Assembly (NCBI RefSeq): GCF_007859765.1
Contig: NZ_SIHJ01000001.1
Span: forward strand, 1,446,067-1,510,066
Reading direction: 5' to 3'
DNA from: Posidoniimonas corsicana
Lineage (GTDB): Bacteria; Planctomycetota; Planctomycetia; Pirellulales; Lacipirellulaceae
Length of the DNA stretch: 64,000 bases
Numbering within the stretch: the stretch's first letter is position 1; the number at the start of each line of letters is the position of its first letter. The position numbers and the translations under genes were made by a program. Below are positions 34,746 to 40,920 of this stretch, piece by piece. The notes below the pieces were generated by a model. That model had not been told where the DNA came from and did no database searches. It saw only the letters and a list, made by a program, of their open reading frames with translations.

Positions 34746-36614
34746 TCAGCCGTGGCTGCTGTCGTCGAGGATGTTGACCAGCGTCTGCGGGTCGTCGTCA
34801 TCGTCGTCGGCCTGCTGGCGGGCGGCCTCGTCGTCGGGGCCGGACATCTCCTCGTCCTCGGCGGCGTCGCTCTTCTGGATCTTCGACTCCAGCGGCAGCT
34901 CCAGGCGGAAGATGGTGCCCTTGCCCGGCTCGCTGGTGAGGCTGACGGCGCCGCCGTGCTCGTTGAAGATCTTCTGGGTGACCGAGAGCCCCAGGCCGGT
35001 GCCGCGGCTGCCCTTCTTCGACACGAACACGGTGAACACCGACTCGACATCCTCTGGCGCGATGCCCACGCCGGTGTCCTCCACCAGTATCACCGCCCGC
35101 TTGGCGGCGGCGTCCAGCTCGGTGCTGACCGTCACGACCGCCGGGTCACGCCCCTCGCAGGCGTCGATCGCGTTGGTCACGACGTTCAGCACCGCGCGGT
35201 GGATGGCGTCGGGGTCGAACTCGATGACCGGGATATCGGCGGCCGGCCGCCACTGCAGCTCGACGCTGACGTCCTTCGCGCGGGACTGGACCAGCTCCAC
35301 CACGTCGGCGGTCACTTCGTTGAGGTCGCTGGGGACCGGCTCGGGCACACGTTCCTTACTGAACGTGAGCATGTCCATCACCAGGCCGGAGATCCGCTCC
35401 TGGTTCTTGTCGACGATCTTCCAGCCCTTGCGCATCGTGGCGACCGCGTTGATGGCCGCCTCGGCGTCGATCTCCACGCCGTCCTCACCCTCGTGCGTGG
35501 CCTTCTCGTGGTCGGTCATGCCGAGCTCGATCAGGTAGCTGCCGCCGCGGACGCCCTGCAGGATGTTCTTGATGTGGTGCGACAGCGTGGCGATCGTCTG
35601 GCCGATCGCCGCCAGCCGCTCGGCCTGCACCATCGCCTGGTAGTACGAGGTGTCCTCGATGGCCAGGGCCGCCTGGTGGGCGATGGCCACCATTAGTTTG
35701 AGGTGCTCCTGGCCGAACTGGTTGGTCGACTTCTGCTGCGCGATCCGCTGCGGCGTGAGCGACGTGTCGATGTAGATCACGCCGACCACGTCGTACCGGC
35801 CCTGCATGGGCACGCAGATCGCCTCGCGCACGCCCATCTTGACGATGCTCTGCGCCGGGTCCCAGCGGTTGTCGTCGCGGGCGTTGCTGGTCAGCACGCC
35901 CTCGCCGTTCTCCACCACGTAGTCCAGGATGGTCTGGCTGATGCTGATCCGCTCTTCGGTCTGGATGCCGCGGCGGTGCCGGCGGACGCGGGGCTCCAGC
36001 TTGCCGGTCTTCTGGTCCTTGAGCATGATGCAGCCGCGGTCGGCCTCAACCCACTCGAAGATCATGTCCATGATGCGCGAGAGCAGCTGGTCGATGTCCA
36101 GCGTGTGGCTCACCGCCAACGACGTGCGGTACATGATCTGCAGATTGCTGCGGGCGCGGGCCAGCCAGGGGCTCTGCGTCTGGTCGGCCGGGGTGGCCAG
36201 CAGCTCGCTCCCCTCGGCGTGGCTGATCGAGTGCAGGATGCGCGACTCGTCGCCGTCGAGCACGGAAGAAACGATGTCGATGCGGCTGTCGCCGGAGTCG
36301 ATCGACTCTTCCTTCGGGCCGGTGAACAGCAGCAGCGAGCGGCCGAGCTGCAGCTGGTCGCCGCTGCGGAGCAGCGCCTGACGCACAGCCTTGCCGTTAA
36401 CGTAGGTGCCGTTGGAGCTGTTGAGGTCCCGCAGCAGGACGCGGCTGCCGTCGAGCGTGATCTCGGCGTGCTTACGCGAGACCTCGGTGTCATGCAGCTG
36501 GAAGGAGTTGTCGCTGTCCCGGCCGAGTGAGGTCGGGTTCTCGCGCAGCTCGAACCGGGTCCCCTGGTCACGGCCTTGGATTACGAACAACGACGGCACG
36601 CCATTTGGCCCCAA
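34746..36614 (-). CDS. FHA-GAF sensor histidine kinase
   Basis: About 622 aa; start uncertain (TTG 36614 or GTG 36599). An FHA domain at about 8-95 (NPTSLGRDSDNSFQLHDTEV, SRKHAEI, NSSNGTYVNG) binds phosphothreonine. A GAF domain covers about 155-320 (RGCIMLKDQKTGKLEPRV, AICVPMQGRYDVVGVIYID). A HisKA-like helix with the phospho-acceptor candidate is in IATLSHHIKNILQGV. The HATPase domain shows NVVTNAIDACEG (N box), VEDTGVGIAP (G1) and GTGLGLSVTQKIFNEHGG (G2). No membrane segment, so it is cytoplasmic. The FHA domain suggests input from a Ser/Thr kinase. The response regulator lies 77 bases upstream. The acidic tail ends in DDDDDDP. Confidence 0.9.
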   Translation of the reverse strand: MGPNGVPSLFVIQGRDQGTRFELRENPTSLGRDSDNSFQLHDTEVSRKHAEITLDGSRVLLRDLNSSNGTYVNGKAVRQALLRSGDQLQLGRSLLLFTGPKEESIDSGDSRIDIVSSVLDGDESRILHSISHAEGSELLATPADQTQSPWLARARSNLQIMYRTSLAVSHTLDIDQLLSRIMDMIFEWVEADRGCIMLKDQKTGKLEPRVRRHRRGIQTEERISISQTILDYVVENGEGVLTSNARDDNRWDPAQSIVKMGVREAICVPMQGRYDVVGVIYIDTSLTPQRIAQQKSTNQFGQEHLKLMVAIAHQAALAIEDTSYYQAMVQAERLAAIGQTIATLSHHIKNILQGVRGGSYLIELGMTDHEKATHEGEDGVEIDAEAAINAVATMRKGWKIVDKNQERISGLVMDMLTFSKERVPEPVPSDLNEVTADVVELVQSRAKDVSVELQWRPAADIPVIEFDPDAIHRAVLNVVTNAIDACEGRDPAVVTVSTELDAAAKRAVILVEDTGVGIAPEDVESVFTVFVSKKGSRGTGLGLSVTQKIFNEHGGAVSLTSEPGKGTIFRLELPLESKIQKSDAAEDEEMSGPDDEAARQQADDDDDDPQTLVNILDDSSHG

Positions 36615-37345: not shown

Positions 37346-37981
37346 GTGAAGACACTTCCCGTCGCCGCGATCGCGGCTCTTCTGTTTGCCGCCCCGGCCT
37401 TCGCCCAGAACCAGGCCGGCATCAACGCCCCCAAGTACGGCTTCGCCGTGGTGGACGTTAACTACGTATTCAAGAACCACCCGCAGTTCCGCGAGAAGCT
37501 GGAGGGCATGCAGGGCGAGGTTCAGCAGATCGAGCAGCAGCTCAAGGGCAAGGCCCAGGGCCTGATGACGCTGGAGCAGAAGCGCAACAGCTTCAAGCCC
37601 GGCTCCGATGAGTTCAAGAAGGCCGACGAGGAGCTCGCGACCGGCAAGGCCAGCTTCGAGCTGGAGAAGAACCGGCTGCAGAAGGGCTTCCTCGAGAAGG
37701 AGGCCAAGGCGTACTACGAGGCCTACGGTCAGGTGCAGGCGGAGATCAACCGCTACGCCAAGCACTACAAGATCGGCATCGTCTTCCGCTTCAACGGCGA
37801 GGAGCCGGACCCGGCGATCCGTCAGCAGATCCTGGCCGGCATCAACAAGCCGGTCCAGTACCAGGACTCGGTTGACATCACGCCGGACATCATCGCGATG
37901 GTCAAGGCCAGCTACCCGGCCAAGAACCCTTCGAAGACGTCTGTCGCGAACCCCACCGCTGGCAATAGCGGCCAGTATTGA
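37346..37981 (+). CDS. OmpH/Skp-family periplasmic chaperone
   Basis: 211 aa from GTG 37346 with Shine-Dalgarno AAGGAG seven bases upstream. The signal peptide (VAAIAALLFAAPAFAQ) is followed by FAVVDVNYVFKNHPQF, typical of the OmpH start, then a long coiled coil (about residues 50-145: EKLEGMQGEVQQIEQQLKGK, KKADEELATGKASFELEKN) and a C-terminal segment YAKHYKIGIVFRFNGEEPD. Skp-like trimers hold unfolded outer-membrane proteins. Located first in an envelope operon ahead of lpxC, matching the ompH-lpx grouping of many diderms. Confidence 0.88.
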   Translation: MKTLPVAAIAALLFAAPAFAQNQAGINAPKYGFAVVDVNYVFKNHPQFREKLEGMQGEVQQIEQQLKGKAQGLMTLEQKRNSFKPGSDEFKKADEELATGKASFELEKNRLQKGFLEKEAKAYYEAYGQVQAEINRYAKHYKIGIVFRFNGEEPDPAIRQQILAGINKPVQYQDSVDITPDIIAMVKASYPAKNPSKTSVANPTAGNSGQY

Positions 37982-38096: not shown

Positions 38097-38972
38097 ATGC
38101 CCCAGTCGCGCACACAGCACACGCTTGCCCGACCCGTATCCGTGCGTGGGGTCGGCTATTGGTCCGGCCAGGAGGTCAGGGTGGAATTCCGCCCGGCCCC
38201 GGTGGGCGCCGGCCGCTTCTTCGTCCGGGACGATCTGCCCGGTTCGCCACGCATCCCCGCCGAGTCCGCCAGCCGCACCGACGCCCAGCGTCGCACCGTG
38301 CTGGCGACCGACGAAGCGGACGTCGAGATGGTGGAGCACGTCCTGGCGGCCCTCGCCGGGCTTGAGGTCGATAACTGCGAGATCGGCGTCACGTCCGCTG
38401 AGATGCCGGGCCTGGACGGCTCGGCCGCCGCGTTCGTCGAGGCGATCGCCCAGGCCGGCCTGACTTCTCAGGCGGCGCTCGTGCGGCCGATCATGGTCGA
38501 GCGCCCCCTCCGCTGCGGCGACGCCGACAAGTGGATCGAGGTCCGCCCGCCGATGGGCGACCGGCTCTCTATCGAGTACCGCCTGGACTACGGCGCCGAC
38601 AGCCCGATCGGCTCGCAGTGGCTCGTTACCGACGTCGACCCCATGGCGTTCATCGCCGAGCTGGCCCCGGCCCGCACCTTCCTGCTGAAGCAGGAGGCCG
38701 ACGCGCTGATCGAGCGGGGCCTGGGGGCGCACGTCTCGCCCGACGAGCTGCTGATCTTCGGGCCGGACGGCCCGATTGGAAACCAGCTGCGTTTCGACGA
38801 CGAGTGCGTCCGGCACAAGGTGCTGGACGTCGTGGGCGACCTGGCCCTGGCGGGCCGCCCGATCGTGGGGCACGTGGTGGCCTACCGCAGCGGCCACCAG
38901 CTCAACGGTCAACTGGTTGCGGAGCTGCTCAAGGACGAGCGGCTGCACTCCCAGTCCAAGCGGTCGGCGTAA
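38097..38972 (+). CDS. lpxC: UDP-3-O-acyl-N-acetylglucosamine deacetylase
   Basis: 291 aa from ATG 38097 (MPQSRTQHTLARPVS) with AGGGAG upstream. First committed step of lipid A synthesis, a zinc deacetylase. Ligands are visible: His81 in VEHVLAALAGLEVDNCEI, and His240 and Asp244 in RHKVLDVVGDLALAG. PGLDGSAAAFVEAI and LAPARTFLL are other family blocks, and the second catalytic His near the end is in AYRSGHQLNG. Shorter than E. coli LpxC by about 14 residues. Upstream of lpxA in the same unit. Confidence 0.93.
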   Translation: MPQSRTQHTLARPVSVRGVGYWSGQEVRVEFRPAPVGAGRFFVRDDLPGSPRIPAESASRTDAQRRTVLATDEADVEMVEHVLAALAGLEVDNCEIGVTSAEMPGLDGSAAAFVEAIAQAGLTSQAALVRPIMVERPLRCGDADKWIEVRPPMGDRLSIEYRLDYGADSPIGSQWLVTDVDPMAFIAELAPARTFLLKQEADALIERGLGAHVSPDELLIFGPDGPIGNQLRFDDECVRHKVLDVVGDLALAGRPIVGHVVAYRSGHQLNGQLVAELLKDERLHSQSKRSA

Positions 38973-39028
38973 CGGATTCACTTAATCGAGCGGGCGAAGG
39001 AACGCCCGCCTACCCGAGGAGACTCCCC

Positions 39029-39835
39029 ATGGCCACAAGCATTGCAGCAAACGCCTGGGTGGACCCGCGTGCGGAGCTCGACGAAGAGGTCGAGATCGGT
39101 CCGTTCTGCACGGTCGGCGCCAACGTCCGGATCGAGCGTGGCACCCGCCTGCTCAACAACGTGACCCTGATGGGCCACGTCGACATCGGCCGCGACAACA
39201 CCTTCTACCCGAACGTGGTGATCGGGGGCGAGCCGCAGGACATCAGCTACACCGGCTCTGCGACCAAGGTCGTGATCGGCAATGGCAACATGTTCCGCGA
39301 GGGCGTGACGGTCAACCGCGCCACCGAGAAGGAAGACGGCGTCACCGCCATCGGCGACGAAAACTTCCTGATGGCCAACTCGCACGTCGCGCACGACTGC
39401 AAGCTCGGCAGCCGCATCATCATCGCCAACGGCACGCTGCTGGGCGGGCACGTCCACGTGAACGACTTTGCGTCGCTCTCCGGCGGCGTGGCGGTGCACC
39501 ACTACACCACCATCGGCAGCTACAGCTTCATCGGCGGGCTCAGCCGTGTGCTGCACGACGTGCCGCCGTTCATGCTCTGCGAGGGCACCCCCGCCCGGCC
39601 GCGTTGCATCAACATCGTGGCGCTGCGGCGGAACAACTTCGACCCGGCGGAGATCGACTGCCTGGCCGAGGCGCACCGCCTGCTCTACCGGTCGAAGGTC
39701 GGCCTGGAAGCCGCCCGCGAGGTCCTCCGCGGCGCCGACCGCATCACCGCCGGCGTGCAGGACCTGCTGTCGTTTATCGAGGGTCAACAAGAGGGCCGCC
39801 ACGGACGTGGCCGAGAAGGAAAGAGGGCCGCATGA
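39029..39835 (+). CDS. lpxA: Acyl-ACP--UDP-N-acetylglucosamine O-acyltransferase-like protein
   Basis: 268 aa from ATG 39029 (MATSIAANAWVDPRAELDEE). A left-handed beta-helix of hexapeptide repeats is clear (VEIGPFCTVGANVRIERGTR, VTLMGHVDIGRDN, IIIANGTLLGGHVHVND). The catalytic His lies in MANSHVAHDCKLGS. The C-terminal helical domain follows (NFDPAEIDCLAEAHRLLYRS). Transfers a 3-hydroxyacyl chain from ACP to the UDP sugar. The last four bases overlap the next gene (ATGA), so translation is coupled to the oxidoreductase, which may alter the sugar substrate (amide instead of ester at C3). Confidence 0.93.
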   Translation: MATSIAANAWVDPRAELDEEVEIGPFCTVGANVRIERGTRLLNNVTLMGHVDIGRDNTFYPNVVIGGEPQDISYTGSATKVVIGNGNMFREGVTVNRATEKEDGVTAIGDENFLMANSHVAHDCKLGSRIIIANGTLLGGHVHVNDFASLSGGVAVHHYTTIGSYSFIGGLSRVLHDVPPFMLCEGTPARPRCINIVALRRNNFDPAEIDCLAEAHRLLYRSKVGLEAAREVLRGADRITAGVQDLLSFIEGQQEGRHGRGREGKRAA

Positions 39836-40920
39836 CACTCCCAAGAATCGCAGTCGTCGGCGCCGGTCACCTGGGCCGGTTCCACGCCAAGCTGTCCGCC
39901 GGGATTGATCAGCTGGACCTGGTCGCCGTGGCCGACCCGAGCGAGTCGCACCGCACCGCGGTCGCCGCCGAGGCGTCTACCCGGCCGGTCGCCGACTACC
40001 GGGAGCTGATCGGCCAGATCGACGCCGCCGTGGTCGCGACGCCCACCGTCCTGCACTTCGAGATCGTCAAGCAGCTGCTCGACGCCGGCGTGCACGTGCT
40101 CTGCGAGAAGCCTTTGACGCCCACGCTGGGTGAGGCCAACGAGCTGGTCGCCGCGGCCGACGCCAGCGGCGCGGTGCTGCAGGTCGGCCATGTGGAGCGG
40201 TTCAACCCGGCGGTCGGGCTCGCCGCGCCGCGGCTCCGCGACCCGCGGCTGATCCGCACCACCCGCACCAGCGGGTACACATTCCGCTCGACCGACATCG
40301 GCGCGGTGCTGGACCTGATGATCCACGACATCGACTTGGTGCTCAGCCTGGTCCATTCGCCGGTGGTCTCGGTGCAGGCGATGGGCCTGTCCGTGCTGGG
40401 CGACAACGAGGACATGGTCACCGCCCAGCTGACGTTCGAGAACGGCTGCGTGGCGCAGCTCAACGCGTCGCGGGTCAGCTTCCAGCTCGAACGCACCATG
40501 CAGGCCTACACCAGCCACGGCTACGTGGGGGTCGACTTCAACACCCGGCAGGCGACCTTCGTCGAGCCGCGCGAGGACGTGCTGCGGCGCGGGTTCCACG
40601 TTGGCTCGCTGACCGGCGACGAAAAGGACCACCTCAAGGCGAACCTGTTCGACGAACTCCTGGTGAAGACCACCGAGGAGGCGCCGCCGATCAACGCCAT
40701 CGAAGAAGAGCTCAAGGACTTCGCCCACGCCATCACCACGGGCAGCGCCCCGCGCGTCACCGGCGCTGATGGACGCGACGCGGTGGGGGTGGCGGAGCAG
40801 ATCCTGCAGAAGGTGGAAGAGCACCGCTGGGACGGCAACGCCGAAGGCCGGCACGGCGCCTTCGCGACCCCCGCGATGCCGGTCCTGCCGATCGAGACGC
40901 CAATCCGGCGGGCGGCCTAA
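39832..40920 (+). CDS. Gfo/Idh/MocA oxidoreductase, possibly GnnA-like
   Basis: 362 aa. NAD-binding Rossmann start IAVVGAGHLGRFHAK, the conserved sugar-binding Lys in VHVLCEKPLTPTLGEAN and the C-terminal alpha/beta domain with DIGAVLDLMIHDIDLVLSLV (HDIDL). Start overlaps the lpxA stop. In Acidithiobacillus and Leptospira, GnnA of this family oxidises UDP-GlcNAc at C3 beside lpxA, and GnnB then aminates it, giving amide-linked lipid A. The same position suggests that role here, but no GnnB-type aminotransferase lies in the window. A general sugar dehydrogenase is the alternative. Confidence 0.82.
   Translation: MTLPRIAVVGAGHLGRFHAKLSAGIDQLDLVAVADPSESHRTAVAAEASTRPVADYRELIGQIDAAVVATPTVLHFEIVKQLLDAGVHVLCEKPLTPTLGEANELVAAADASGAVLQVGHVERFNPAVGLAAPRLRDPRLIRTTRTSGYTFRSTDIGAVLDLMIHDIDLVLSLVHSPVVSVQAMGLSVLGDNEDMVTAQLTFENGCVAQLNASRVSFQLERTMQAYTSHGYVGVDFNTRQATFVEPREDVLRRGFHVGSLTGDEKDHLKANLFDELLVKTTEEAPPINAIEEELKDFAHAITTGSAPRVTGADGRDAVGVAEQILQKVEEHRWDGNAEGRHGAFATPAMPVLPIETPIRRAA

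Follow-up and report, generated by a model that had tools for sequence, protein, structure and literature searches.

A GnnA-like dehydrogenase gene overlapping lpxA in Posidoniimonas corsicana and a proposed route to amide-linked lipid A

The window analyzed here, a 64,000-nucleotide stretch of the Posidoniimonas corsicana genome (contig NZ_SIHJ01000001.1, positions 1,446,067 to 1,510,066), carries three consecutive plus-strand genes: lpxC, lpxA and a gene of the Gfo/Idh/MocA oxidoreductase family whose product most closely resembles GnnA, the UDP-N-acetylglucosamine (UDP-GlcNAc) 3-dehydrogenase. We propose that this protein, an aminotransferase encoded elsewhere in the genome and an LpxA acyltransferase act together to give a lipid A with 2,3-diamino-2,3-dideoxyglucose (GlcN3N) in at least one backbone position, a reading to which we assign a probability of about 0.7. 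A pathway to the 3-amino sugar nucleotide UDP-GlcNAc3N is likely from the genes found, and the gene evidence is best read as pointing to an amide-linked or hybrid lipid A. An earlier note on this DNA had described a GnnA-like gene and raised the possibility of amide-linked lipid A; sequence comparison and the ranking of structures both uphold the GnnA identity, and the lipid A chemistry is what we infer.

The first gene, lpxC (38097..38972; ATG at 38097, stop at 38970–38972), encodes a UDP-3-acyl-GlcNAc deacetylase of 291 residues that is recognized by TIGR00325 (225 bits, cut-off 187) and PF03331. A gap of 56 bases separates it from lpxA (39029..39835; ATG at 39029, stop at 39833–39835). The 268-residue product, LpxA1, is predicted to acylate UDP-GlcNAc or UDP-GlcNAc3N from acyl-acyl carrier protein (acyl-ACP) and passes the LpxA equivalog models NF003657 (308.6 bits, cut-off 226) and TIGR01852 (286.5 bits, cut-off 231). 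When aligned to Escherichia coli LpxA it retains the histidine of the HVAHDC motif (E. coli H125) and has asparagine (VNRAT) at the position of E. coli H99. The gnnA-like gene (39832..40920; ATG at 39832, stop at 40918–40920) encodes 362 residues and is preceded immediately 5′ of its start codon by GGAAAGAGGG. Its start codon lies within an ATGA stop–start overlap with lpxA at 39832..39835, which bears out the four-base overlap described in the earlier note.

The case that the Gfo/Idh protein is GnnA-like beyond the superfamily level is strong, as judged by sequence comparison and a predicted structure. The two-domain Gfo/Idh/MocA architecture is present, with PF01408 (104.7 bits) and PF22725 (53.6 bits) each over cut-off. 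In a phmmer search confined to proteins of solved structure, 7bvj is the top match (E = 5e-45) and the runner-up scores 8e-18. An AlphaFold model of the protein (predicted local distance difference test score, pLDDT, 89.2; predicted template modeling score, pTM, 0.85; low confidence for the final 24 residues) is best matched by 7bvj (Z 40.7) and 7bvk (Z 40.3), both titled as UDP-N-acetylglucosamine 3-dehydrogenase GnnA from Acidithiobacillus ferrooxidans. The model and 7bvj share 35% identity and superpose over 301 residues with a root-mean-square deviation of 1.7. The best-matching other protein has a Z of 36.6 at 26% identity, and WlbA (3q2k) ranks lower at Z 34.7. Because all of the compared Gfo/Idh structures share one fold, the evidence lies in the ranking and not in the fold itself. 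Residues E92, K93, P94, D161 and H165 are invariant across 25 aligned rows, and we take the EKP lysine and the D-x3-H pair to be Gfo/Idh active-site residues. The best NCBIfam match is NF040723, the archaeal UDP-GlcNAc 3-dehydrogenase, at 165.8 bits against a cut-off of 450, and the protein is not assigned to that family. There are 20 other Gfo/Idh matches in the genome, the highest at 57 bits.

Distribution was examined in a sample of 294 genomes of the phylum, with the best 6–8 candidates scored per genome in each search. At E ≤ 1e-30, gnnA is found in 224 (the GnnA-plus genomes, the other 70 being GnnA-minus), and LpxA is found in 282 at E ≤ 1e-25. Among the 29 loci that score best elsewhere in the phylum, the same-strand gene upstream of gnnA is lpxA in 20 cases and lpxC in five. 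The arrangement is more than chance, since one or the other lies upstream in 25 of the 29, and the linkage of gnnA to lpxA/lpxC is old. Neither gene lies upstream within the stretch examined in the other four, one of which has only 739 upstream bases. A start codon that would allow the same 4-base overlap is present in eight of the 20 lpxA-linked relatives. All eight belong to the same class as the window (families f2 and f4), and five of them to one genus. We also note that lpxC precedes gnnA with no lpxA within the stretch examined at loci L022, L023, L032, L043 and L046.

The GnnA-minus set is not clean. A profile re-search of its 70 genomes gave matches in 61, the highest at 158 bits, which we take to be Gfo paralogues (up to 156 bits) except for a GnnA beside lpxA in G244 and half a gene in G143; this reading had no scores of true GnnAs with that profile as a reference, and the set must be regarded as impure for that reason. 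Loci of lpxA were sought in 36 of these genomes, 30 of which lack the aminotransferase considered below as well, and 30 loci were obtained. The lpxC(-fabZ)-lpxA arrangement of such GnnA-less members resembles the window in the closeness of lpxC and lpxA (lpxC is seen in 15 of the 30 loci), but differs in that no Gfo gene lies near lpxA in any of the 30. In the sole locus examined for a fusion (L221:174-2349), lpxC carries a fused FabA-like domain, and lpxA comes next.

The statement that GnnB is missing holds at the locus but not genome-wide. Seven proteins of the P. corsicana genome match PF01041, two of them strongly and at full length. One of these is a WbpE/GnnB-type DegT aminotransferase (G000:C3:420660-421808; L020:7658-8809) encoded on a contig other than that of gnnA, and it matches WbpE at 1e-92 and ArnB at 1.3e-49; it is the one candidate that emerged when a GnnB-type enzyme was sought in the genome. 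We call it a GnnB candidate only, because its gene adjoins neither gnnA nor lpxA. The gene is solitary, and the protein falls short of the cut-off for each NCBIfam equivalog listed. The second strong PF01041 protein is ArnB-like and lies in a polysaccharide cluster with an epimerase and glycan genes, as named from their translations.

In a first tree of the aminotransferases from the 30 best phylum loci, with the sequence from P. corsicana entered twice, the candidate belongs to a clade of these phylum sequences with support of 100/98. A wider quick tree, which used 15 of the 31 rows of the phylum tree, groups the candidate (Shimodaira–Hasegawa approximate likelihood ratio test, SH-aLRT, 91) with 19 of 30 rows from other-phylum GnnA genomes that have no adjacent aminotransferase, the other 11 lying outside its clade, and with four f35 sequences. 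Of 24 aminotransferases encoded at GnnA loci, including one located 4 kb from GnnA (L103), 22 fall apart from it. The neighborhoods of the aminotransferase were inspected in 21 GnnA-plus genomes of the phylum for a nucleotide-sugar 6-dehydrogenase, a hexapeptide acetyltransferase or an epimerase; 19 have none of these markers and two have some. No conserved neighbor of the solitary phylum aminotransferase was found in 15-kb stretches. At L229:7829-10165, from a genome in which no GnnA was found (G156), a GnnB-type aminotransferase gene lies head to head with lpxA.

Within the phylum, GnnA and the aminotransferase tend to occur together. At E ≤ 1e-60 the aminotransferase is present in 215/224 GnnA-plus and 38/70 GnnA-minus genomes (odds ratio 20), and at E ≤ 1e-95 in 150/224 and 17/70, respectively. 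These 2 × 2 tables count genomes and not events, and the sole correction for kinship is to count families by majority, which at 1e-60 gives 77 to 1 for GnnA-plus families and 10 to 5 for the others (p 3e-4).

The pathway that would follow is simple. By analogy with its relatives, GnnA would use NAD to oxidize UDP-GlcNAc at its 3-OH, which yields the 3-keto sugar; the unlinked 3-aminotransferase would then aminate C3 to give UDP-GlcNAc3N, to which an LpxA would attach the 3-hydroxyacyl chain through an amide rather than an ester. The resulting lipid A would contain GlcN3N at one or more backbone positions, and the gnnA–lpxA overlap would hold sugar supply and use together. We infer the catalysis, the pairing of the two enzymes and the amide linkage from the closeness to GnnA, the lpxA/lpxC linkage, the presence and co-occurrence of the aminotransferase, and a gene set that encodes LpxA and LpxC in full, together with an LpxD-like protein. 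The last of these is the third match of the LpxA search in the genome, a partial piece that fits LpxD in scoring 234 bits with NF002060 (over 207) and 231.9 bits with TIGR01853 (under 242.5).

Several observations weigh against this pathway. The relation of the candidate's clade to the GnnA-adjacent GnnBs and to WbpE is supported only at 84/20, and the clade includes members located in Wbp-type polysaccharide clusters. Co-occurrence is weaker at 1e-95, where the family counts are 57 to 21 and 6 to 9 (p 0.017). Four genomes of family f35 (G032, G094, G126 and G156) have the aminotransferase at E ≤ 1e-113 with no GnnA profile match above 96 bits, and that of G126 sits in a Wbp-like cluster. Conversely, in 4/6 genomes of family f6 the GnnA match is weak (about 1e-46 to 1e-48) and the aminotransferase is absent at 1e-60. 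Roughly 1.5 kb upstream of GnnA are devoid of lpxA and lpxC in three of the 29 best loci, and in G244 the search overlooked a GnnA that adjoins lpxA, a false negative that contaminates the GnnA-minus set. Finally, no residue signature was apparent in LpxA among the 28 columns in which GnnA-linked and GnnA-less sequences differ most clearly. None of these columns likewise splits the LpxAs of 10 gnnA–gnnB loci from E. coli in an alignment of 80 rows, which comprises 21 GnnA-linked and 30 GnnA-less sequences, these 10, 18 from other-phylum GnnA loci without adjacent gnnB, and E. coli. The selectivity residues of LpxA, whose inspection the earlier note had proposed, thus speak neither for nor against an amide-forming enzyme. 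Residue-based selectivity was dropped as evidence in either direction; asparagine replaces E. coli H99 in each of four classes.

A hybrid backbone is a special case of the proposed pathway, in which one LpxA would acylate UDP-GlcNAc3N (amide) and the other UDP-GlcNAc (ester) to give GlcN3N–GlcN, where GlcN is glucosamine. We regard it as possible but less likely than not. The genome encodes a second full-length LpxA outside the window (LpxA2; G000:C1:3896497-3897363, L312:1477-2346) that is deeply diverged, being 37% identical to LpxA1, and well over the NF003657 cut-off (300 bits, cut-off 226). In a quick LpxA tree of 88 of 110 rows (16 GnnA-less sequences and six near-copies were left out), LpxA2 belongs to a separate deep group, SH-aLRT 97, jointly with two Rhodocyclales sequences. 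At least two LpxA matches are found in 82/219 GnnA-plus but only 3/63 GnnA-minus genomes having LpxA (odds ratio 12, p 5e-8, with kinship ignored), so that 82 of the 85 genomes with two matches are GnnA-plus. There is also a precedent in Capnocytophaga canimorsus, which has lpxA and lpxA′, a hybrid GlcN3N–GlcN backbone, and gnnA and gnnB located outside the lpx operon (PMC3342949). P. corsicana is similar in having two LpxAs in a genome with GnnA, but lpxA and lpxA′ share one operon in C. canimorsus, whereas here gnnA overlaps lpxA and the second lpxA is unlinked. The order gnnA-gnnB-lpxA′ is seen at two loci from Rhodocyclales metagenome-assembled genomes (L085:8001-10895 and L095:8001-10815), where lpxA′ falls beside the LpxA2 sequences; that placement, however, depends on a long branch, a quick tree and thinned rows. 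The hybrid is further weakened by the single LpxA match of 137/219 GnnA-plus genomes with LpxA, and by G121 and G167, which have lpxC-gnnA plus an LpxA match of the second type only, so the two are not always partners. The LpxA2 gene adjoins a gene resembling prs (ribose-phosphate pyrophosphokinase).

Two further explanations would take GnnA, or the gene itself, away from lipid A. The 3-keto sugar could go into some glycan other than lipid A, such as a surface polysaccharide, with the lpxA adjacency reflecting shared regulation of UDP-GlcNAc use. The Wbp/Wlb pathway to UDP-GlcNAc3NAcA (WbpB/WlbA, WbpE, WbpD) and GnnA/GnnB carry out the same C3 chemistry, the aminotransferase here resembles WbpE and has clade members in Wbp-type clusters, and WlbA and further Gfo/Idh sugar dehydrogenases have the same fold as GnnA. 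We nevertheless consider this explanation unlikely, as GnnA and not WlbA is the top match, gnnA follows lpxA/lpxC in most of the best phylum loci and lies beside lpxA in other phyla too, and, unlike the Wbp/Wlb systems, neither a nucleotide-sugar 6-dehydrogenase nor a WbpD-like gene lies beside the aminotransferase. No WbpD-like acetyltransferase matches in the P. corsicana genome at E ≤ 1e-10; a near-identical query does match in G126. Still less probable is that an ordinary Gfo/Idh oxidoreductase gene, unrelated in function, lies in the lpx cluster by chance, lipid A being of the usual ester type. The family is numerous, as the 20 additional matches in this genome illustrate, and genomes with lpxA and no GnnA exist, so GnnA is not required for lipid A as such; but the GnnA match far exceeds those to other Gfo/Idh structures, and the lpx linkage is conserved across the phylum.

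The proposed GnnA–aminotransferase–LpxA pathway can be compared with described systems. In A. ferrooxidans, gnnA is located near lpxA as well. The A. ferrooxidans GnnA is of the same dehydrogenase type, 39% identical over 233 residues, and the closest structure, but P. corsicana has no adjacent aminotransferase gene, its gene order is lpxC-lpxA-gnnA, and its candidate, encoded on a separate contig, does not fall within the clade of the 22 GnnA-adjacent aminotransferases. Dispersed genes have been described elsewhere: in Mesorhizobium loti, gnnA and gnnB are separate from each other and from lpxA (PMC5644692). Granulibacter bethesdensis, with GlcN3N lipid A, has a single putative gnnA, which shares 44% identity with its A. 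ferrooxidans counterpart, and two candidates for gnnB (PMC8036547). Among planctomycetes, the lipid A genes lpxABCDKL of Planctopirus limnophila are almost all essential (PMC10632474), and a 2010 survey of Kdo2-lipid A enzymes includes planctomycetes, the word GnnA being absent from its available portion (PMC3087551). Although the GnnA type itself is already known, no description of GnnA or GlcN3N in planctomycetes was found in the searchable, open-licence literature among the matches listed.

A scan of named genomes from other phyla gave 588 loci with a GnnA-like gene; the best 80 were evaluated, and among them gnnA beside lpxA is again found. A GnnB-type aminotransferase gene lies within 400 bases after GnnA in 23 of the 80 (Pseudomonadota 18, Thermodesulfobacteriota 4, Nitrospirota 1). 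Together with L103, these give 24 genomes with the aminotransferase at GnnA, 18 of which have a single match at E ≤ 1e-60. The other 57 loci are spread over twelve named phyla and a few other groups. Bdellovibrio lipid A includes diaminoglucose, and at a Bdellovibrionaceae locus (L084) gnnA adjoins lpxA with no aminotransferase within 16.7 kb. One paper describes Bdellovibrio lipid A as unusual and neutral (PMC12228718). From the 57, 30 genomes were chosen, and an aminotransferase lies outside the examined stretch in all 29 that could be searched. Their reading as unlinked GnnBs was weakened by a nucleotide-sugar dehydrogenase and/or hexapeptide acetyltransferase gene beside seven of the 20 whose neighborhoods were read (L268, L270, L271, L273, L274, L276 and L278).

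If the pathway is correct, an unusual lipid A with amide linkage may be made in much of the phylum. A broader form of this idea, which we hold to be doubtful, is that most of the phylum has a GlcN3N or hybrid GlcN3N–GlcN backbone, many members having two anciently separated LpxAs, with an unlinked, third-clade aminotransferase as GnnB. The same aminotransferase clade occurs in GnnA-bearing Nitrospirota, Thermodesulfobacteriota, Ignavibacteriota and Cloacimonadota, and amide-linked lipid A would then be widespread and perhaps old. When Campylobacter jejuni loses gnnA and gnnB, TLR4 activation and sensitivity to antimicrobial peptides both increase (PMC8036547), and the backbone sugar therefore matters. 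An ester-only lipid A in the GnnA-less lineages would make them natural controls, and because the phylum holds GnnA-plus and GnnA-minus lineages as well as genomes with one or two LpxAs, the question can be tested directly with a few cultured strains.

Among the genes around the locus, that immediately 5′ of lpxC (37346..37981, plus strand) encodes an OmpH/Skp-like protein (PF03938, 48.4 bits, cut-off 32.4) that we count simply as a neighbor, and the gene 3′ of gnnA encodes an ABC-2-type membrane protein on the opposite strand. Neither gnnB, lpxB nor lpxD is found among the eight neighboring proteins scanned between 31.5 and 45.1 kb of the window. Unrelated to GnnA, a protein with FHA, GAF and histidine kinase ATPase domains is encoded on the minus strand at 34749-36614, between P-II-like and response regulator genes.

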